Source of the DNA: Spirochaetota bacterium
GTDB taxonomy: Bacteria; Spirochaetota; Brachyspiria; Brachyspirales; JACRPF01
Length of the DNA stretch: 64,000 bases
Direction: 5' to 3'
Assembly (NCBI GenBank): GCA_016214035.1
Contig: JACRPF010000020.1
Location: 256,800 to 320,799, forward strand
Shown here: positions 1,330-59,771 of the stretch, one piece after another
How positions within the stretch are numbered: the stretch's first letter is position 1
Layout of the letters: each line of letters starts with the position of its first letter
Made by a program: the position numbers and the translations under genes
The notes under the pieces: generated by a model
What the model was told of the DNA's origin: nothing
The model's input: only the letters and a program-made list of their open reading frames with translations
Databases searched by the model: none

Positions 1330-3075
1330 TCAGAACTTTTTATACACGCCGCCGGTTCCGGACGTACCGGAAACATCGTGATCTGTCTTCGATATTGTCT
1401 GCGATACTGCCGACTGGTCAGACTTTCCGTTCGTCTCTCCCTCCGGCAGTTGCGGCACTTCCTTCCGTTCCAGTCTCGCGCCGGCGTCCGTCTTGAAAAA
1501 CGCTATGGTGTCCTCAAGCTGCATCGACTGTGATGAAAGCTCCTCAGCCGTGGACGCGACCTCCTCGGAACCCGCAGCAGCATCCTGGGCCGCGGCATTC
1601 ACGTTCTGCACGGCGGCGGAAACCTGCTGCACTGAATTATTTATCTGCTGAACCGAATTATTAATCTGCTGCGCGCTGCTGCTCTGTTCAGAACTTGCGG
1701 CGCTGATCTCGGCGACAAGCTCGGACGTTTTCTGTATATCGGGCACCAGTTTCGTGAGCATCTCGCCCGCCTTCTCGGCAACCTGGACGCTTTTCTTGGA
1801 AAGTACGCCAATCTCACCCGCCGCGCGCTGGCTTCTGTCCGCAAGTTTCTGCACCTCGCTCGCGACAACCGCAAACCCCTTGCCGTGCTCGCCGGCACGC
1901 GCAGCCTCGATGGATGCGTTGAGCGACAGAAGATTCGTCTGCCGCGCTATTTCCTGTATAATCATGACCTTGTCCGCGATCTCTTTCATCGCCGCAACCG
2001 TTTCGTTGAACGCATTTCCTCCGTCCTTGGCGTCATTGGCGCTTTTCGCCGCAATCTTTTCCGTTTGGCGCGCATTGTCATAGTTCTGTTTTATGGTAGC
2101 GGTCATTACCTGCAGCGAAGTAGAAACGTCATCAATGGATGCTGAGACCTCCTGCACGGATGATGACACCTCCTCAACGCTTGTCGCCTGTCCCGCGGCG
2201 CTCGCCGATAACGTGTTGGCAGAATCGGAAAGCTGATTACTTCCCGCGCTCACCGTGGCGACTACATTTCGGATATCTTCAACGATCCGTGCAAGCTGCT
2301 CCGCCATCGACTGCGTCATGCGCGCAAGATCGCCGATTTCATCGTTCGCCCGCAGATGTTTTTCATTAATCTGAAGTGTTTCGCGCGCAGACCATATATC
2401 GCCCGATGCCACCATGCCGAGTGTGGACGTGAGGCTTCCGATAGGCATAAGTATGGCGCGTACAAGCAGGCTCACGATCGCAAGCGACAGGGCGCTCACG
2501 ATGATCATGATCAGCACAAGCAGGCGCACGAGCTCAAACCCGTGCCTGTTCATCTCCGATTCCCGGATCTGATATCCGATACGCCACTCCCAGGTATCGA
2601 ATGCGTTATAGGTGATCCAGTACTTCACGCCTTTATTCACATAGACGCCGCTGCCTTTTGATTTTTTTCCCGCGAAAGCGATAAAATCCATATTGTTGAA
2701 CGTATTATTGTCGCCGCGCCGGACATCGGGGTGCATCAACAAATCGCCGTTCGCATCCACGATGATTGGGAATGCGGTAAGCGCATCTCCCCGCTTGTCC
2801 CCGTAATGGATCTGCTCAAGGCGCTGCAGCACGTTATTCTGAAATGCCGATTTAAAACCGTCATACATGCCGGTGTCGGTCAATTCGGCATCCTTTTTCT
2901 CAAGCTCAGCTATAATCAGATGAACCTTGCCCTCAAACTCCTGCCCGAGCACTTTCTTGAACGATCCGGTGACCATCACGAACGTTAGAACCGATACGAT
3001 GACGATGAGCGCCAGAAAAGCGGCGCTGATGGCACCGATGATGCGCCATACAAGGGATATTTTTTTTTGCGACAT
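1330..3075 (-). CDS. Methyl-accepting chemotaxis protein with periplasmic Cache-like domain
   Basis: 581 residues. A membrane segment (about 12-36) is followed by a periplasmic sensor region (about 40-180) with [16 protein letters not shown] and WRIGYQI, typical of a Cache fold, a second membrane segment (about 183-207), HAMP, and the long cytoplasmic hairpin. The tip has [21 protein letters not shown] and [16 protein letters not shown]. Between the TSVEE block and MTATI there are 26 residues, the same as in the receptor at 3720 and 14 fewer than in that at 53071. The protein ends in VYKKF, a Lys-rich aromatic tail shared in type with the other two receptors. An AAGGAT site precedes the ATG. 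It lies directly below a secreted Cache-only protein and above cheW. The ligand cannot be read from sequence. Confidence 0.93.
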
Positions 3076-3119
3076 ACTACCACATCCTTACTGCGTTACC
3101 GATGGTGAACGCCGGAATA

Positions 3120-3584
3120 TTACTCCAAATAGGTCCCGCTGCCGAAGAAAAAGTCCTTACCGGCAACGACTTTGATAAACGATGTTTTCTTCTCGATCTT
3201 TTTCGTCGTCGGATTACGGAAGCTGTATTCATCCCAACCCTCGCCTTTCGCCGACTTCGCCACTTTTATATGCTGCACGATGATCTTGACGCCGTTCGGG
3301 TCTGTGGACTCAAGGAAATTCTTACCCACGCGGTCCTTGAACTGCCCGTGCGCAAGACATTTTCCCATATTATCATACGCGAACACATAATACTCCCCGT
3401 CGACAAACTGACCCTTGGGGTCGCTTATGTCAAAAAATGCCTTATCAGCGCCGACCTTTGCATAGTGGGCAACCGCCTTGTTGACAAGATCAATACATTT
3501 CTGTTTACGTTCGGCAAGTGATGCCCCGAAAACGACGGCCGTTACAGCCGCCATAAGAATAAGAAAACGTACTCTCGTGTTCAT
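3120..3584 (-). CDS. Secreted single Cache-domain protein
   Basis: 154 residues with a short signal peptide (hydrophobic stretch about 7-20, ending near VFGAS). The mature part is one complete single Cache domain: YYVFAYDNMGKCLAHG, VGKNFLESTDPNG, GWDEYSFRNP and FFFGSGTYLE, in the order known for sCache_2 ligand-binding domains. It has no membrane anchor and no signalling domain, so it should be a soluble periplasmic protein. It is placed between two receptor genes of the chemotaxis operon and has its own AAAAAGGAG site. By position it may be a periplasmic binding partner that loads a ligand onto a receptor, or a decoy for the ligand. That role is inference; the domain call is secure. Cytochrome c is excluded since there is no CxxCH. 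Confidence 0.8.
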   Translation of the reverse strand: MNTRVRFLILMAAVTAVVFGASLAERKQKCIDLVNKAVAHYAKVGADKAFFDISDPKGQFVDGEYYVFAYDNMGKCLAHGQFKDRVGKNFLESTDPNGVKIIVQHIKVAKSAKGEGWDEYSFRNPTTKKIEKKTSFIKVVAGKDFFFGSGTYLE

Positions 3585-3719
3585 TGTGTTTCTCCTTTTT
3601 ACTATGCCTGCATGCAGACCATGCGTTCACCGACAACAGATCCAAGAACATCAAACGAATACAGACTGTATCATAATTATCCTCCACGTTAACCATCCGC
3701 GGCACTGACCGCGATGGGA

Positions 3720-5543
3720 CTAATACCTCTTGAACTCACCATCCTCGTCATCCACCGGATTCGTCATATCGATATGCGCGCCCTTCGGCTTATCCGGAGT
3801 AACTGCGGCATGAGATCCGCCTACGGCGATTTTCGGTTTCGGTTTCACCGGCGCCACATGAGCCGGACTATGCGCCGCCGCCCTGGACGAGGGTATTCCG
3901 CCGACCGTATGCGTCAGCAGTTTTTTCTGTTCGGCCTGCGTCTTCGGAAGCGACCGCTGCACTGTTCCTTCGTCAAGTTTGAAGAACGCGGTGGCATCCT
4001 GCATCTGCGATGCCTGCGCGTTGAGTTCCTCCGCCGTTGACGCCACTTCTTCTGCGTTGGCCGAGTTCTGCTGCACCACGCTGCTCAGCTGCTGCACGGC
4101 GCCGTTGACCTGCTGCACGACGGTGTTCACCTGCTGTATCGCGTTGTTTATCTGCTTTGCGCCGTTGTTCTGCTCGCTGCTTGCCGCGCTTATCTCGGCT
4201 ACGAGTTCAGCGGTCTTCTGTATATCGGGCACGAGTTTCGAAAGCATCTCACCCGCCTTTTCGGCTACACCCACACTCTTCTTTGAAAGCATGCCTATCT
4301 CGCCGGCCGCCCGCTGACTTCTGTCCGCAAGTTTCTGCACCTCGCTCGCGACCACCGCAAATCCCTTGCCCTGTTCGCCCGCCCGCGCCGCCTCGATGGA
4401 CGCATTGAGCGACAGGAGATTGGTCTGCCGCGCGATCTCCTGGATGATGGTCACCTTGTCGGCTATTTCTTTCATCGCCGCGACGGTCTCGCTCACGGCG
4501 GAACCGCCGTCCTTCGCGTCGTTCGCACTTTTCGCGGCTATCTTTTCCGTCTGGCTTGCGTTATCGAAATTCTGCTGAATGGTCGCGGTCATCTGCTCAA
4601 CCGACGACGACACCTCTTCGATGGACGATGAAACCTCCTCCACCGACGACGAAATCTCCTCAACGCTTGCCGCCTGCTCGTTGGCGCCCTGCGAAAGCAT
4701 CTCGCTCGATGAACTCATCTGCCCGCTTCCAGAAGCCACATTCGTCGCCGACGTCTGCACCGTATCCACCACTTCGCGGAGTTTCACGAGCATGGCGCTG
4801 AGGGCGTTGGCAAGAAGCCCTATTTCGTCTTTCATCGCGATATATTTCGCATCGACAACGATGGTCAGGTCGCCCCGGGCCACGGTATCCGCAATGCCGA
4901 CGGCAGCATTCAACGGCCTCGTGATGCTGCGCGTAATTATAAGCGCGATCATTATCGCAAGAATCGCGCCGAGCAGCGCCAGAACAACGCTCACTACGAT
5001 GATCGTCGCAATAGTGGCATCGTACACCGCATCTGCTTTATGCTGCTCATTAAGTATCGACGCGGCAATCTTTTCCTGCGGTTCCCGGTAGCCGCTGATA
5101 TAGCCATCCATTTCATCATCGAGCGTCCGTATGAGCTTGATATCGTTCGCTATGGCAGCCGGAAGAATTTTTTTTTCATAATGCGCTATTATCGCCGCCA
5201 GCTGAACTTCGGCTTCGCGCTGCAACCGCTTCTCCACATCGGTATCGACGATGGACGCTATCGTCTTTATGTCTTCCAGCGCTTCCGTTTTTATCGTATC
5301 CCAATCTTTTTCCGACGATTTAAAATCACGGTTGATAATAGTGTCGGCGATAACCTGGTACATTTTTGCGCCCATATCAGCGGACTCCTGCGCGATGATA
5401 CCGTCTTTAGCGCGTTCCGCCCCTTCATCCTGCAGCGTTTGCAATATCCTCAGCTGTGTATAATTATACACGACGAGCGCCGCCATAATCGCGACCACGA
5501 CACCGAACCCGAGTGCAAGCTTCTTCCCGATCGTCATTCTCAT
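3720..5543 (-). CDS. Methyl-accepting chemotaxis protein with four-helix-bundle sensor
   Basis: 607 residues. An N-terminal membrane helix (about 8-27) starts [12 protein letters not shown], typical of 4HB_MCP receptors. The helical periplasmic part (about 30-185) has no Cache motifs, a second membrane segment follows (about 187-210), then HAMP ([10 protein letters not shown]) and the signalling hairpin with [21 protein letters not shown] at the tip. Four-helix-bundle sensors bind amino acids and other small ligands. The methylation arms contain repeated EEVSSS heptads. The C-terminus is rich in Pro/Lys and ends EFKRY, similar to FKKY of the receptor at 53071, probably a flexible tether for adaptation enzymes. 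The ATG follows an AGGAGCGAAGT site, 21 bases after cheA. A second in-frame ATG two codons on is also possible. Confidence 0.93.
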
Positions 5544-5564
5544 ACTTCGCTCCTATTGAAAATA

Positions 5565-7697
5565 TTATAATGCATTGTAAGTGCCGCCGCTGAATTCCTG
5601 CCGACGAAAGGCGCTCTCGCTTGCGCCGCCTGCCGCCTGCGTATTCCGTATATGGTTTTTTATAATGATATTTACATCAAGAATAAGCGCTATGGTGCCG
5701 TCACCGAGAATGGTGGCGCCGGAAACCTCGTCGACATCACGAAACGTGCGGCCTATCGACTTTATCACCGTCTGCTGTTTACCGAGCACATCATCCACGA
5801 CGAGGCCGATGCGCCGATCCTCATACTGCGTGATTATCATACGCTCAACCGCCACACGCTCGCTGTCGATGGCGAAGAGATTGCGCAGACGTATGAATGG
5901 CACCATCTCGCCGCGGAGATTCACCACATCACTGCCGGTATCAACACCCAGAACATCGGCAGTAAGATCCACACATTCGTCGGCATTCGAAAGATTCAGT
6001 ATGAATTGCGACCCGCCGATACGCGCCAGAAGTCCGTCGACGATGGCAAGCGTGAGCGGAATACGCAGCAGCATCTTCGTGCCTTCCGGTGACGATTCAA
6101 TCGCTATGGTGCCGCGCAGGCGCTCAACGTTCTTTTTCACCACATCCATACCCACGCCGCGGCCGGAAACACTTGTCGCTTTTTCCGCCGTGGAAAACCC
6201 CGGCAGGAAGATGAGTTCCTGTATTTCACGGCCGGACAGTTCGGCGCCTTCGGCAACCAGTCCGCGTTCAACCGCTTTCGCCAGTATACGCTGACGGTTC
6301 AATCCCGCGCCGTCGTCTGACACCGCTATCACCACGTGCGCGCCCTCGTGCCGCGCCGAAAGCGTAACCGTTCCTTTCGCGGGCTTTCCGGCTTTTACAC
6401 GCACCCCGGGCGATTCGATGCCGTGATCAAGCGCATTGCGGAGAATATGCATGAGCGGGTCTTTGAGCGATTCAATGACCGTTTTGTCGAGTTCGGTTTC
6501 CTTGCCGACTGTGACAAGGTCGATCTCCTTGCCGAGTTCATGGGCAAGATCGCGTACCGGGCGGACAAAACTCTTGAAGAGTTCATCCACCGGCACCATG
6601 CGCATCACCATCGACGTGTCGCGAAGGTCGCCGATGAGCCGCTCGAATGACTGCGCCATTGAGATGAGATCAAGATCATCCCTAGTGACGGCGGTCTGCA
6701 TGAACTGCGCCTCTAGCGTCACCAATTCACCAACGAGATTCATGAGATGATCAAGCTTTTCGCTCTGCACCCGGATTGTCGCACGCGCAGTCTGCTGCCG
6801 CTGCTCCTCACGTACCTCCCGTACATGCCGCTGCTCGGCAACTGCCGCTTCCACATCATGCGGGGCGACAATTCCTTTCTCGACTGCCTGCTCCCCGATG
6901 CGTTTGTGCGAGGATATCAGCGCTGCAAGTTCTTCACGCGTTATCGATCCGCGTTCAAGCAATATGTCTCCGATGCGTTTATAATCACCTTCAACGAACG
7001 ATCCTTCCTCGTCAATAAGTTCGATTGAAAGCTCACTGCCGTCCTCGACAAAAATGAAGATGTCTCGTACGCCGTGTACATCTTTTACGGTTGTGAGCAC
7101 AATATTCCATGTCGTGCAGCAGACTTCGGGATCGAACTCGTCAAGCGGCGGCGTATGAGGGTCGGCTACGATGACCGCCCTTCCGGCCGCATGTATTTCA
7201 TTGAACAGCGGTGTAAGCTTCACGCCCCGTTTAAAGATATCCTCGGACGGTTTAAAGATAATGCGATATGTCCACTGCTTTTCCGGAACCGGTTTTTTAT
7301 CGGGTGCGACTACAGTTCCCGCACGTACGGGAAGGAACTTCACGATCCTGCCTACCAGATGAGCGGTTGCTGCCTCCGGCACACCGGGTTCATCGGCCAA
7401 AAGCGTTTTTATATGATCGCGGGCGGCAAGCGTTACATCGATGATGTCTCGGGAAACCGCAAGCGTTCCCTTGCGTATAAGATCGAACATGGTCTCACAC
7501 TCATGCGCGAACGCGCTCACGCGGGTGAACCCGAACATGGCGCCCGAACCCTTGATGGTGTGCATGGCGCGGAATATATCGTTGACGATCTCGCTGTTTT
7601 CGGGCGTCTGCTCGAGCGCCACGAGCGACTGCTCTATCTTCTCAAGAAGCTCGGCTGCTTCCTCACGGTAGGTGTCAGCAAACCTCGACGCATCCAT
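5565..7697 (-). CDS. cheA: Chemotaxis histidine kinase CheA
   Basis: 710 residues with the full CheA layout. P1/Hpt has phosphorylatable His46 in AMHTIKGSGAMFG. A ferredoxin-like regulatory region (about 148-240) contains YRIIFKPSEDIFKRG. Next comes a short helical module (about 249-300; GDILLERGSITREELA, GEQAVEKGIV) resembling the MshEN/T2SS-E N-terminal family. P3 dimerisation follows (LDHLMNLVGELV), then P4 ATPase with HILRNALDHGIE, DDGAGL and GRGVGMDVVK, and the CheW-like P5. CheA autophosphorylates in receptor arrays and passes phosphate to CheY. P2 for CheY docking is not of the E. coli kind. cheA is 54 bases after cheY and heads the receptor genes in the same operon. It is the only CheA in the window and could serve both CheW proteins. 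Confidence 0.96.
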   Translation of the reverse strand: MDASRFADTYREEAAELLEKIEQSLVALEQTPENSEIVNDIFRAMHTIKGSGAMFGFTRVSAFAHECETMFDLIRKGTLAVSRDIIDVTLAARDHIKTLLADEPGVPEAATAHLVGRIVKFLPVRAGTVVAPDKKPVPEKQWTYRIIFKPSEDIFKRGVKLTPLFNEIHAAGRAVIVADPHTPPLDEFDPEVCCTTWNIVLTTVKDVHGVRDIFIFVEDGSELSIELIDEEGSFVEGDYKRIGDILLERGSITREELAALISSHKRIGEQAVEKGIVAPHDVEAAVAEQRHVREVREEQRQQTARATIRVQSEKLDHLMNLVGELVTLEAQFMQTAVTRDDLDLISMAQSFERLIGDLRDTSMVMRMVPVDELFKSFVRPVRDLAHELGKEIDLVTVGKETELDKTVIESLKDPLMHILRNALDHGIESPGVRVKAGKPAKGTVTLSARHEGAHVVIAVSDDGAGLNRQRILAKAVERGLVAEGAELSGREIQELIFLPGFSTAEKATSVSGRGVGMDVVKKNVERLRGTIAIESSPEGTKMLLRIPLTLAIVDGLLARIGGSQFILNLSNADECVDLTADVLGVDTGSDVVNLRGEMVPFIRLRNLFAIDSERVAVERMIITQYEDRRIGLVVDDVLGKQQTVIKSIGRTFRDVDEVSGATILGDGTIALILDVNIIIKNHIRNTQAAGGASESAFRRQEFSGGTYNAL

Positions 7698-52559: not shown

Positions 52560-53060
52560 TTACGCGTTCGTCTGGGCGTCCTCCTTCACGTATTCGAGCT
52601 CTTTCTGCGAAAAAACATTGGCAGAATCCAAGATAATGATGAAATCATTTCCTTTCTTGCCGATGCTGCCGATGTACTCGCCGCTGATATTCATTCCCAC
52701 CTTGGGCGGCGCTTCGATCTGTGAAGCGTCAAAACGTACTACCTCCCTCACCGCGTCAACGAGTGCGCCGATGACTAATGTCTCGCCGTCCGAATCCACC
52801 TCAACGATAATAATGGCGGTATCGACATTTTGTTCCGCGCAGGTGAGATCGAATTTCAGACGGAGATCTATCACCGGAACAACGCAGCCTCGCAAATTGA
52901 TGACGCCGGCCATGAAGGGCGGCGTTTTCGGGACCTTAGTAACCCGCGTCACCTCCAGCACCTCTTTCACATGCAGCACCTCAAAAGCGAAAAGCTCTTT
53001 TTCAAGATTGAAGGTGAGATATTGTTTCGATTCACGTGTTGTTTGCCTTGTTGTTTCCAT
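52560..53060 (-). CDS. cheW: Second CheW coupling protein
   Basis: 166 residues, clearly paralogous to the CheW at 781. It has QYLTFNLEKELFAFEVLHV, VTKVPKTPPFMAGVINLRG, VIDLRLKFDLT and VGALVDAVREVVRFD in the same order. AGGGGG is 8 bases above the ATG, and the ATG is 10 bases below the stop of the receptor at 53071. Because that receptor has a longer signalling stalk than the two in the main operon, this CheW may be tuned to it. It would link the receptor to CheA (probably the CheA at 5565, as none is encoded here). Last gene of the putative sigma-54 operon. Confidence 0.94.
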   Translation of the reverse strand: METTRQTTRESKQYLTFNLEKELFAFEVLHVKEVLEVTRVTKVPKTPPFMAGVINLRGCVVPVIDLRLKFDLTCAEQNVDTAIIIVEVDSDGETLVIGALVDAVREVVRFDASQIEAPPKVGMNISGEYIGSIGKKGNDFIIILDSANVFSQKELEYVKEDAQTNA

Positions 53061-55125: not shown

Positions 55126-55299
55126 CTATACCAGCATCAGCTGGATTGTTTTCACGCTGCGACGCAAATTGTATGCAGTATGTATTACACTCGACAATGA
55201 CAATTCTTGATGCAATTCCATTGCGAGGTCGATGATCATATCGTCCTTGATTTTCGTAGCTAGAACGTCCTGCAATGTCACGATTACCATGGCAAACAT
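55126..55299 (-). CDS. 57-residue small protein in the second chemotaxis operon
   Basis: Starts at an ATG with an excellent GGAGGTAATT ribosome site and ends in TAG 27 bases above the receptor gene. The peptide runs MFAMVIVTLQDVLATKIKDD, then a helical part MIIDLAMELHQELSLSS and a basic end (YNLRRSVKTIQLMLV). It looks amphipathic and has no cysteine. No family recognised. The position between the truncated receptor and the full receptor, and the strong ribosome site, argue that it is real and made in good amount. A small regulator of receptor assembly would fit, but that is a guess. It was too short for usual gene finders. Confidence 0.65.
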   Translation of the reverse strand: MFAMVIVTLQDVLATKIKDDMIIDLAMELHQELSLSSVIHTAYNLRRSVKTIQLMLV

Positions 55300-55323
55300 A
55301 ATTACCTCCGTACATCCGTTTTC

Positions 55324-55926
55324 CTATCCGGAATCATTTGAATCAGACTTATTGCCGTTATACGTATCAATTCCGACTCTGTCGTGTGCAGCGGATGCAC
55401 AAACAATCACATTCGCGCATACATCGTTTATCTCCCTCGCCGCGTCATCGGTCAAACGCGCCAGTTTGCGGACCTCGTGCGCAACAATTGCCAGCCTGCG
55501 TTCACACTCATCCGGACGCGCCGCCTCGATAGTCGCTTTGACGGCGAGCACATTTGTGCGTGTGGCAATGTCGCCGACGACCGCAACGACATCAGCGATG
55601 CTTGCGGTCTTTCCGAAATATGTAACGGTATCATCGTCACGTTTCTGGCGAGTATCCTTCTCGTTTTGTATAACCGAAATCATATCGGTGGTATTTCCCA
55701 TAGCCGTCGACTCAACCTCAAGCCTCTTCAGTTCATTTTCATATTTTATTCGTATTGTTTTTGCCTGCGCGCACTTCTTCGAGGCATACTGCAATTGGAA
55801 CAACGTAATCGCGGCGGCGGCTAGTACGATAGTCAACCGCAAAAGCGCGTTCGGTATAATTGCCGCCGCCAGCGCAAAAGCGACAACGAATCCGAATGGA
55901 ATCATGATTCGCGAAAATGTTTTCAT
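55324..55926 (-). CDS. Truncated receptor-like membrane protein keeping only a chemoreceptor tip
   Basis: 200 residues. Two close membrane segments (about 7-25 and 29-45) are followed by a coiled coil (about 50-110) and then a region plainly related to the receptor signalling tip: DIATRTNVLAVKATIEAARP, LAIVAHEVRKLARLTDDAAREI, which align without gaps with [20 protein letters not shown] and [22 protein letters not shown] of the neighbouring receptors. The turn itself is changed: the glycines of AGEHGKGF are replaced (PDECERRL). There is no ligand domain, HAMP or methylation heptads. GGGAGG is just above the ATG. It could insert into or cap receptor clusters, or be a degenerated receptor; the intact frame over 200 codons with good ribosome site argues for function. 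Confidence 0.72.
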   Translation of the reverse strand: MKTFSRIMIPFGFVVAFALAAAIIPNALLRLTIVLAAAAITLFQLQYASKKCAQAKTIRIKYENELKRLEVESTAMGNTTDMISVIQNEKDTRQKRDDDTVTYFGKTASIADVVAVVGDIATRTNVLAVKATIEAARPDECERRLAIVAHEVRKLARLTDDAAREINDVCANVIVCASAAHDRVGIDTYNGNKSDSNDSG

Positions 55927-55968
55927 ATGCCTCCCGTATGGCGCTATCGTTATTCTGGCGGTTTTTTT

Positions 55969-56154
55969 CTACTCCCTACCAGACTTGGCTATATCGTCAC
56001 ACTCGTTATTTTTATCACGTATATCAAGAGACAAGACGTTAAAATGCTCGACATAGCAATCAAGACATAACCACGAGTATTCTTTCGAGATTAATGAAAC
56101 ATCATAAAGCGTACCCTCGCTGTTTCTGCAGCAATCACATCTTCGTGGTTTCAT
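55969..56154 (-). CDS. Small zinc-ribbon-like protein
   Basis: 61 residues from the ATG at 56154, selected because GGAGGCGAT is directly upstream; a start 21 codons earlier has no ribosome site. The peptide has two CxxC-type knuckles: MKPRRCDCCRNSEG and WLCLDCYVEHFN, spaced as in a small zinc ribbon, then an acidic, probably disordered tail (IRDKNNECDDIAKSGRE). It is the first gene below the sigma-54-type promoter at 56201-56216. Zinc ribbons of this size often bind proteins or nucleic acid; no function can be named. Confidence 0.7.
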   Translation of the reverse strand: MKPRRCDCCRNSEGTLYDVSLISKEYSWLCLDCYVEHFNVLSLDIRDKNNECDDIAKSGRE

Positions 56155-56312: not shown

Positions 56313-57686
56313 CTACTTTATCACATGAAGCTTTTTCAACTTTCGATAAAGCGATTGGGGTGATATCTTTAGAAGTTTTGCGGTTGCAAGTTTATTATTT
56401 CCTGACATCGCTAGTGCTTGACTTATCAGATCGCGTACGGCTTCGTCGAGACCGCCTTCGGGTATGCGAGGCACGGGTGAAACGGCGGAAGATATCTCAT
56501 TATCCGATATGGGAAAATGCTTTGCTTCCAGTTGGTTCCCGTCACAGAGTATGATGGCACGTTCAATCATGTTCTTCAGTTCCCTGATATTGCCCGGATA
56601 CGAATAGTTCCGTAGAACATCGAGGGCATGTTGATGAATGTTTACGTCAGGTTTTCCCAGTGCTCGACCGATCTTTTTACAGAAATGTGCTGCCAATAGC
56701 GGAATATCCTCAGGATGGGCACGTAGCGGCGGAACCGTGATCTCGAACGTATTGAGCCGGTGGAAGAGGTCCTGCCTGAACCTGCCGGTCTTCACCATGT
56801 CGTGAATATCGGCATTCGTGGCGGAGATAATGCGCACATCAAACGGTATTTCCTTATGACATCCCAGCCGTTTGATCGTATGTTCTTCAAGCGCGCGGAG
56901 TATCTTCGACTGCATCATCAGAGGCATGTCACCGATCTCGTCGAGGAACAGCGTTCCGCCGTCTGCAGCCTCAAAACAGCCGGCCTTATCTGTTTCAGCG
57001 CCGGTAAACGCCCCTTTCAGATGACCGAAAAACTCGCTCTCCATAAGACTTTCGGGAATGGCGCTCGCATTGAGCGCGTAAAAACTGCGTTTACTACGCT
57101 CACTTGCATAATGAATGGTCCGCGCCACCAGTTCCTTACCGGTACCGCTTTCCCCGGTAATCAACACCGAAGTAGTGGACGCTGCGGCCGCTTTTAAAGC
57201 CAGATGCATCACCGCTTTCATCGCCCCGCTTTCTCCGACCAGATCTCCCACATACGATCGCAACTCATCAGACGCAAGGATATATGCGGAATGTATCTCC
57301 TTATATCGGGAATTCAATTCGATATATTTTCGCGTGCGCTGAATGGCGCCCTTGATCTCCGAAAGGCTTAGCGGTTTGAAAAAGAAATCGAAAGCGCCAA
57401 GCCGTAATGCGGTAAGGACACTGGTGCTATCCCCGTGTCCGGTCATCATTATCACTTCGCATTCAGGGTAGTCTTTCTTGATCTGTTCCAGTATGGAAAA
57501 CCCATCCCGTTCCGGAAGTCGAATATCGAGTATCGCGATGTCAATTCGTTCACGGGCAAATACAGCGAATGCGTCGTCGGCTTTCCCCGCCTCGAAAAGA
57601 CGAAAGGCGGGACCGTCAAGACTTGTGATAATCGCTTTACGCACGATCTCTTCATCATCGATTATCAGCACGCCGATACTGTTCAT
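56313..57686 (-). CDS. NtrC-family sigma-54-dependent response regulator
   Basis: 457 residues. A receiver domain (about 5-120) has [12 protein letters not shown], the phosphoacceptor Asp in [13 protein letters not shown], and Lys in FFFKPLS. The AAA+ domain (about 145-375) has Walker A GESGTGKE, the sigma-54-contacting GAFTGAE loop, Walker [13 protein letters not shown] and [12 protein letters not shown] Fis-type helix-turn-helix ends the protein ([25 protein letters not shown]). It would activate sigma-54 promoters when phosphorylated, probably by the kinase at 57683, with which its start overlaps by four bases. The nearest target is the promoter at 56201. Confidence 0.95.
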
Positions 57687-59737
57687 AGCGCACTCGCTTG
57701 TTCTGTTACGGGGAGTTTGATGATAAACTCCGTACCAACGCCGACTTCGCTGGACACTGTTATCTCTCCCCGCATTCCTTTAATAATACCATAACTGATC
57801 GACAACCCAAGTCCCGTTCCTTTTTCCTCCGCCTTGGTTGAATAGAACGGGTCGAATATCCTGGGGATTATTTCCGGGGGGATACCGGTACCGTTATCCC
57901 TGATATGAACTTCGACAATTCGTTCTTCCCGCTGTACGGTAATGGTAATATTTTTCTCGGCTCGCGCAGCGTCTTCAAGCGCATCCCGCGCGTTCGTGAG
58001 CATATTGATGATGACCTGTTCAAGCCGATACGTATTGCCGGTCGTGGAACACGCGGTCTGTTCCGGCAATTGCACGGAAACGGTAACCCCCCGTTTGGCG
58101 AGTTGTGTTCCCATAAGTGACAGTGCATTGGATACTGAGGTGCGTACATCAAATACATGCTGCACGTCGTCTTTCTGTTCTCGCGAGAACAAACGAACAT
58201 GCTCGATGAGCTTTTTCATCCGCTCCGTATAGGTAAGAAATTCCTTGAGTTTCTGAACAATCAGCTCCCGTTCAACATCTCCCTCGGACATCCTTACCAA
58301 CATGCTCTCCGAATTGAGTGAAAGCGCGGTAAGCGGCTGGGTCAATTCATGCGCAATGCCTGCCGCGAGCTCCCCGAGCGAAGCCAGTTTCTCCGTCTGC
58401 AGCATCTTCATACGCTGTGCTTCTGCAGCCCGTCGTTCGGTAATATCACGTCCGATAGCAGACGCGGATACTATGCGGCCTGCTGTATCCCTGACGGGCG
58501 AAACCATGAGCGACACGTGGACCTCACACCCGTCCTTTCTGCGGCGCACTACATCAGAGTATTCAATATATTCACCTTTCCTGATCTTCTTGAGTATCAC
58601 CGCCCGATCATTCTTGAACTCCGGCGGCATCAATATATCGATTGACTTGCCGAGCACTTCTTGTTCCGAATAGCCATAGATCTTTTCTGCCCCCTTGTTC
58701 CAGCTCGTAATTACTCCATCCAGAGTTTTGCCGATGATCGCATCTTCAGACGATTGAACGATAGCCGCAAGTTGACTCGCTTTTTCAAGCGCATGTTTTC
58801 GTTCGATGCGTGTACGAAGCGTGGTAATACCGTAAGCCAGATCGCCTGCCAGTTCTTCTAAAAGCCTCGTCTCTTCCACGGTAAACGAATGGGGTTCCGT
58901 GGAGTAAATATTGAGCACACCGAAGGTTTTACCTTTTTCTTTCTTAAGAGGAAGCGCAATACTGGAACGAAAGCCGCGTTGTAACGCATCCTGCCGCCAC
59001 GGAACTGCCAACGGATCGATTGCAAAATCCTGAATGCTGACACTCGTACCGTTTCTTATGGCGGAGCCTGACGGTCCTCTTCCCCGTTCCGTGTCATCCC
59101 ACGTAATGCGAGCGGTTGCAAGATATCCGTTCTCGGTCCCTGCCCAAGCGACCGGTCGTATCGTTTTCAGCGCATCGTCTTCGGCATATCCGACCCAGAC
59201 AAAAATATACCCCGCCTTCTCGTTGATTATTTTGCAGATATCACCCAGCAAACACTGCTCATTTTCAGCCCGCACAAGCGACTCATTGCACTCGCTGATG
59301 GCACGTAGTTCACGGTTCAAACGCTGCTGCGCCTTCTCGGCCCGTCTGCGCTCCCGACGGTCATCCGCTTCTTGAAGTGCTCGATGCAGCGCTGGTACAA
59401 GCCTGATCAGCTTCTGTTTCAGCACATAGTCGGTGGCGCCCTTTGTTAAAGCATCGATCGCGGCATCCTCGCCGATGACACCGGAGACGAAGATGAATGG
59501 AACATCCGGGCAGCACTCCAATGCCAAGCGTAACGCGGACATGCCGTCATATCCGGGAATTTTATAATCAGCCAAAATAATGTCGAAACACCCCTGCCGC
59601 AGCGCATGTATATATTCTGCCCTCGTCCGCACACAGATTATGTTGAAACGCAGCGTGGATGCATCGAGTGTGGCGCGCACCAACTCCATATCCATCGCAT
59701 CATCTTCCAGATGCAGAATTACTATTTCACGTTCCAT
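57683..59737 (-). CDS. REC-GAF-PAS histidine kinase
   Basis: 684 residues from the ATG at 59737 (GCAGGAGATGGC upstream); a TTG 11 codons earlier is less likely. Order: receiver (about 5-120; phosphoacceptor Asp in IILADYKIPGYDG), GAF (about 165-310; FRSSIALPLKKEKGKTFGV), PAS (about 325-440; IIGKTLDGVITSWNKGAEKIYGYSEQEV in parts), then HisKA with GELAAGIAHELTQPLTALSL, and the ATPase domain with DNGTGIPPEI and FYSTKAEEKGTGLGLSI. It has no membrane segment, so it senses in the cytoplasm and is itself controlled by phosphate on the N-terminal receiver. It is the expected phosphodonor of the NtrC-like protein. Confidence 0.93.
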   Translation of the reverse strand: MEREIVILHLEDDAMDMELVRATLDASTLRFNIICVRTRAEYIHALRQGCFDIILADYKIPGYDGMSALRLALECCPDVPFIFVSGVIGEDAAIDALTKGATDYVLKQKLIRLVPALHRALQEADDRRERRRAEKAQQRLNRELRAISECNESLVRAENEQCLLGDICKIINEKAGYIFVWVGYAEDDALKTIRPVAWAGTENGYLATARITWDDTERGRGPSGSAIRNGTSVSIQDFAIDPLAVPWRQDALQRGFRSSIALPLKKEKGKTFGVLNIYSTEPHSFTVEETRLLEELAGDLAYGITTLRTRIERKHALEKASQLAAIVQSSEDAIIGKTLDGVITSWNKGAEKIYGYSEQEVLGKSIDILMPPEFKNDRAVILKKIRKGEYIEYSDVVRRRKDGCEVHVSLMVSPVRDTAGRIVSASAIGRDITERRAAEAQRMKMLQTEKLASLGELAAGIAHELTQPLTALSLNSESMLVRMSEGDVERELIVQKLKEFLTYTERMKKLIEHVRLFSREQKDDVQHVFDVRTSVSNALSLMGTQLAKRGVTVSVQLPEQTACSTTGNTYRLEQVIINMLTNARDALEDAARAEKNITITVQREERIVEVHIRDNGTGIPPEIIPRIFDPFYSTKAEEKGTGLGLSISYGIIKGMRGEITVSSEVGVGTEFIIKLPVTEQASAL

Positions 59738-59771
59738 GCCATCTCCTGCCGTCGATACATCACTCTGCAAC

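Follow-up and report, generated by a model that had tools for sequence, protein, structure and literature searches.

The window, by which we mean the whole 64 000-nucleotide stretch of Spirochaetota bacterium DNA analysed here, encodes on its minus strand a 200-aa protein (P0001) that resembles the tip of a chemoreceptor joined to a membrane anchor. The question raised by this locus is whether such a protein is a new kind of regulator of chemoreceptor arrays or what is left of a larger receptor. A first-pass annotation, made from the sequence alone, had suggested that it could act as a capping or decoy unit in CheA/CheW arrays.

Frame, membrane hairpin and tip of P0001

The gene and its parts are as follows.

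55324–55926, minus strand: P0001, tip-only receptor-like membrane protein of 200 aa, with an intact ORF and an MCPsignal match of 65.3 bits
55930–55935, minus strand: Shine-Dalgarno-like GGGAGG of P0001, with the same layout as in the paralogue L010
55786–55917, minus strand: membrane hairpin, residues 4–47, with an identity of 0.59 to the paralogue L009 over residues 5–60
55609–55701, minus strand: site of an in-frame deletion inside the protein, residues 76–106, where ∼104–114 arm residues are missing
55402–55608, minus strand: tip hairpin, residues 107–175, gap-free to Tsr and to 425-aa paralogues, accelerated
55492–55515, minus strand: turn PDECERRL, residues 138–145, which replaces AGESGRGF in the alignment

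The ORF starts with ATG, contains zero internal stops over its 200 aa and corresponds exactly to 55324–55926, in agreement with the first-pass description of an intact protein. The GGGAGG upstream of the start is placed as in L010 (GGGAGGATTATG versus GGGAGGCATATG), and the in-frame codon usage of residues 1–175 is like that of the neighboring genes, with the codon fit being lost in the final 25 codons. An ORF of 274 aa on the opposite strand (55232–56056, plus strand) was rejected as a gene because the homology is carried by the minus frame and the paralogues have similar antisense ORFs; it looks like an antisense shadow.

In an HMM search, the Pfam MCPsignal domain (PF00015) was detected at residues 75–174 with an E-value of 7.9e-18 and 65.3 bits, well above the gathering cut-off of 34.6, the match covering only positions 17–99 of the 172 in the profile. 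Residues 107–171 were aligned to the Tsr structure 1qu7 with no gap (E = 1.8e-10), a match that is far above chance and that bears out the gap-free similarity to receptor tip helices noted earlier. The two membrane helices of the first-pass annotation correspond to a hydrophobic stretch from about residue 4 to residue 47, which is interrupted at Pro25 according to hydropathy, and an AlphaFold model of low confidence (mean pLDDT of only 60) places helices at residues 8–21, 27–100, 110–136 and 141–190. Hydropathy and this low-confidence model both point to long helices after the membrane hairpin with a turn near residues 137–140.

The replacement of the tip glycines was also confirmed. The conserved AGExGxGF turn is not kept, its glycines and Phe being gone, and the PDECERRL sequence found there occurs in no other tip recovered from this genome. 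K130 aligns with a near-invariant tip Asn, which we take to be N381 of Tsr, and the tip segments IEAAR and VAHEVRKL are kept.

Parent family and operon context

Searching the whole genome with P0001, we obtained after the self-match three loci in the same genome (L009 on contig C12, L010 on C1 and L013 on C18), each encoding a protein of 424–429 aa. The matches begin at P0001 residue 1 or cover the tip, and the proteins are 37–43% identical to P0001 across the membrane hairpin and the tip. They belong to a wider family.

L009:1288–2565, L010:871–2160, L013:1282–2556, L030, L172, L177:5610–6899 and L137: members of the 425-aa sensorless receptor-like family

P0001 shares the membrane hairpin and a homologous tip with L009, L010, L013, L030, P0003, L172 and L137. 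It also resembles its 425-aa relatives in its slot after a histidine kinase, an NtrC-type regulator and Cys-rich mini-proteins, and in a ribosome-binding-site layout that is the same as that of L010. Unlike them, it is without ∼104–114 residues of the arm that leads to the tip in the parent proteins and without ∼110 residues after the tip in alignments with the paralogues, its turn glycines are replaced, and no CheY or CheA gene follows it. The methylation helices that flank the signaling hairpin are absent from P0001, the corresponding arms having been deleted. The Qx[HQ]DxxxQ motif and the C-terminal YTM..E helix, both invariant in eight relatives, are gone as well. The loss of a sensor and a HAMP region, which had also been claimed, did not occur in P0001, because the parent family itself has neither: MCPsignal is the sole Pfam match above the curated cut-off in L009, a membrane hairpin without a sensor or HAMP is common to P0001 and the 425-aa family, and its closest relatives, the three paralogues, never had either region.

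Judged by its sequence, P0001 is a trimmed paralogue of a sensorless receptor and is confined to its lineage, both the homology and the trimming being evident in the alignments. Its nearest homologues are longer proteins of receptor type, which is one of the two outcomes named on first pass as refuting the proposed reading; the other, the lack of any homologue with this layout, was also observed. The same annotation had pointed to orthologues in other species as a check. Neither the one other genome of the family, which belongs to a sister genus, nor 296 genomes of the phylum, searched with the N-terminal 106 residues, yielded a homologue of this layout; scans of GTDB and viral contigs were also negative for this layout, using short exact peptide patterns that would miss distant orthologues. 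P0001 was found in one genome only. A viral origin was rejected as there was no related viral contig, and the plasmid matches to P0001 were ordinary MCPs aligned in the tip only. A short open frame in L060 of the sister genome was likewise rejected as a parallel tip-only protein, since the locus, which ends nearby at an apparent contig edge, contains an ordinary MCP of which only the C-terminal half is present, with CheW after it.

The genes around P0001, and their counterparts in sister operons, are listed below.

52560–53060, minus strand: CheW, 166 aa
53071–55098, minus strand: full-length MCP (Cache-HAMP-MCPsignal), 675 aa
55126–55299, minus strand: 57-aa orphan ORF preceded by a GGAGG of its own, in the CheY/CheA slot of intact operons, no homologue found
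55969–56154, minus strand: Cys-rich (CxxC...CxxC) mini-protein, 61 aa, weakly DUF7685-like
56313–57686, minus strand: NtrC-type response regulator, sharing 78% identity with its counterpart in the C1 sister operon
57683–59770, minus strand: histidine kinase (REC-GAF-PAS-HisKA)
L069:3850–4400 and L070:8960–9580: Cys-rich mini-proteins in sister operons

The gene order in the window is histidine kinase, NtrC-type regulator, Cys-rich ORF, P0001, 57-aa ORF, MCP and CheW. In the C1 operon (L069) it is histidine kinase, NtrC-type regulator, Cys-rich mini-ORFs, 425-aa receptor, CheY, CheA, MCP and CheW; the C18 copy (L070) resembles that on C1, and the C12 copy (L068) has MCP and CheW upstream instead. 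While the receptor, CheY and CheA unit is intact in the C1, C12 and C18 copies, the window copy is without CheY and CheA, and P0001 accordingly shares only the upstream half of the slot of the 425-aa family. Positions 56508–57699 of the window are 75.6% identical in DNA sequence to the C1 operon. Between 55099 and 55323, a search for traces of CheY, of CheA or of the missing C-terminal part of the receptor detected none. A special closeness of the MCP/CheW half of the window to the C1 operon was rejected given CheW values of 0.73 versus 0.72, and the window operon may therefore be a mosaic. The genome carries five CheA-type genes, one of them ∼49 kb off within the same window, which makes CheA available in trans.

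Further observations were made on these loci. The 57-aa ORF has an ideal GGAGG and coding-like codon usage, with no homologue in its own genome or in relatives. In several sister operons, one to three weakly DUF7685-like Cys-rich mini-ORFs stand in tandem after the NtrC-type regulator and before the receptor. A second chemotaxis operon with two MCPs and CheA lies at the window start (1330–7697, minus strand), ∼45 kb from P0001.

The retention of the histidine kinase, the regulator and the Cys-rich mini-protein beside P0001, the good conservation of the regulator and the loss of the Che-specific CheY and CheA would all suit a protein repurposed as a partner of the adjacent kinase or NtrC-type regulator, that is, a membrane coiled-coil disconnected from chemotaxis arrays. 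However, this adjacency is inherited, since the same type of kinase adjoins the full receptor in the sister operons, and we regard such a partnership as highly improbable.

Constraint and array assembly

In the membrane region (56 codons), the identity of P0001 was 0.59 to L009 and 0.52 to L010, which share 0.62 with each other, and in the tip (69 codons) it was 0.49–0.51 identical to paralogues that share 0.86–0.96. Tajima chi-square values were 15.7–32 for the tip, and those for the membrane region were mixed and weaker (0.1–8.3), so the membrane part is at most mildly accelerated. A dN/dS comparison, which the first-pass annotation had put forward, was run as a codon branch test and rejected omega = 1 on the P0001 branch with 2dlnL of 21.0 for both blocks, 15.6 for the tip and 7.6 for the membrane region, in a model where synonymous sites were saturated, several branch lengths were at their bound and the branch also spans time before the truncation. 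No higher omega than the background was needed for this branch.

Two controls bear on the time after the truncation. The tip replacements of P0001 had a mean BLOSUM62 score of +0.23 to +0.37, compared with about −0.46 in neutral simulations (p = 0.000–0.006), and when neutral drift was simulated to the excess divergence of the tip, the frame was stop-free in only ∼6–13% of the runs. Such drift would also have affected membrane region and tip alike, but the membrane part of P0001 is much less eroded. Given the conservative tip changes, the stop-free frame and the less eroded membrane region, we concluded that constraint on P0001 is reduced and shifted, not absent.

These results bear on whether P0001 is a plain pseudogene in early decay, the frame of which is open by chance and recency only. 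Such a state would account for the lack of an orthologue, the missing operon partners, the strong acceleration of the tip and the codon fit lost in the last 25 codons, but not for conservative tip changes, normal codon usage over residues 1–175 or a membrane part with far less erosion than expected from uniform neutral change; with the frame intact and neutrality rejected, albeit over a branch that includes pre-truncation time, we consider it quite unlikely. The earlier remark that decay is not obvious thus holds, in that simple neutral decay is disfavored by both the omega test and the simulations. The intact frame, start and ribosome-binding site together with the rarity of stop-free neutral runs mean that a plain dead relict is not the simplest interpretation of the locus.

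The dimensions of P0001 were then set against those of other receptors. By hydropathy estimate, there are 93 residues from the membrane to the tip and 61 after the tip, compared with 112–233 and 173–250, respectively, in the remaining receptors of the genome that were measured. P0001 is short by ∼19 residues (∼3 nm of helix) relative to the shortest of these and by ∼95 residues (∼14 nm) relative to the MCP of its own operon. Membrane-to-baseplate distances of 24–40 nm have been reported for gammaproteobacterial arrays (PMC7184735), and in one survey chemoreceptors are reported to span 12–32 paired heptads, with receptors differing in length sorting into separate arrays (PMC6628036). The P0001 hairpin has at most 8–9 paired heptads; it shares with MCP signaling domains (PF00015; Tsr 1qu7, 3g67) a gap-free tip scoring above the gathering threshold, but it has no methylation helices, no AGExGxGF turn and fewer paired heptads than the published range. 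Receptors without an extra-cytoplasmic domain (PMC6628036) and soluble single-chain signaling domains (PMC4692393) are sensorless like P0001, yet these forms are described with signaling hairpins of the usual length, whereas that of P0001 is shorter.

As the hairpin is too short and receptors of different lengths segregate, co-assembly of P0001 into receptor arrays is unlikely, and the proposed capping or decoy unit is not supported, its own operon also having lost CheA and CheY. Titration of free soluble CheW is possible. A functional small modulator, in which the membrane-inserted hairpin would bind CheW (or CheA P5) and cap array edges or titrate CheW, would be in keeping with the intact frame and ribosome-binding site, the retained IEAAR and VAHEVRKL segments, a CheW gene two genes downstream and the constraint on the P0001 branch. 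We nevertheless judge it unlikely, given that the turn glycines and Phe are gone, Lys occupies the near-invariant Asn position, the hairpin is shorter than in every other measured receptor of the genome, receptors of unequal length are found in separate arrays (PMC6628036), the operon is without CheA and no orthologue was found.

A new kind of array regulator is a less likely reading of P0001 than a fragment that is fading or has been repurposed. We consider it probable that the protein is a lineage-specific, trimmed relict of a receptor operon that was duplicated, under constraint that is residual or has shifted, and without kinase control. We infer the following order of events and present role. 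An operon of histidine kinase, NtrC-type regulator, Cys-rich mini-proteins, 425-aa receptor, CheY, CheA, MCP and CheW would have existed in several copies, of which the window copy, as synteny shows, is without CheY and CheA. The alignment shows that its receptor is shorter by ∼114 residues ahead of the tip and by ∼110 behind it, and that the CheZ-like DxxxQ near the C-terminus is among what was lost. Once its partner genes had disappeared, the tip would have come under relaxed selection; the near-invariant AGExGxGF turn would have eroded, and weaker constraint would have continued to act on the membrane hairpin and on the helical character of the tip. P0001 would now be a membrane-anchored helical hairpin, which may be a relict that is disappearing or may be kept for some minor task, for instance the local binding of CheW or scaffolding at the membrane. 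The near-equal loss from the two arms (114 and 110 residues) argues against a relict, as it would suit a hairpin kept in register.

A CheZ-like motif in the parent family

Across eight diverse sequences of the parent family, Q355, D358 and Q362 (L009 numbering) are invariant within [A/S]xQx[HQ]DxxxQ, as is YTM..E near the C-terminus. E. coli CheZ reads AQDFQDLTGQ at the corresponding motif, and the family motif matches the CheZ phosphatase pattern AXXF(Y)Q-DXXXQ (PMC7750401); P0001 differs from CheZ in that DxxxQ is absent. A profile comparison between the parent family and E. coli CheZ gave no similarity, and no CheZ gene was found in the genome of P0001, where CheX-type genes exist. In several of the loci examined, the parent family is encoded beside CheY and CheA. 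The parent family may be a receptor-phosphatase hybrid.

A paralogue from the sister genus shows the opposite deletion.

L174:817–1779 (G001:C58): tip-less paralogue, 272–320 aa

L174 keeps the membrane hairpin, the arm, DxxxQ and the C-terminus and has the MCP tip deleted, and is therefore the mirror image of P0001, in which the tip is kept. It is located directly upstream of genes for a response regulator, a CheW-like protein, a STAS protein and CheA. DxxxQ is thus kept where CheY is kept and lost where CheY is lost, in two cases only, which makes this a lead and not a result. That the parent family is a membrane-anchored hybrid of a receptor tip and a CheZ-like CheY-phosphatase hairpin that was split both ways, into L174 and P0001, with P0001 as the half that docks to arrays, kept as a stand-alone docking competitor, seems to us very doubtful.

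P0001 represents a natural experiment in the dismantling of a chemoreceptor once the kinase and messenger genes go, in which the kinase-control turn is lost before the membrane anchor. As a lead, the parent family is more useful than P0001 itself. If its DxxxQ motif dephosphorylates CheY, receptor docking and signal termination would be joined in one membrane protein, and the tip-less L174 would allow a direct test of which half of the parent protein matters.
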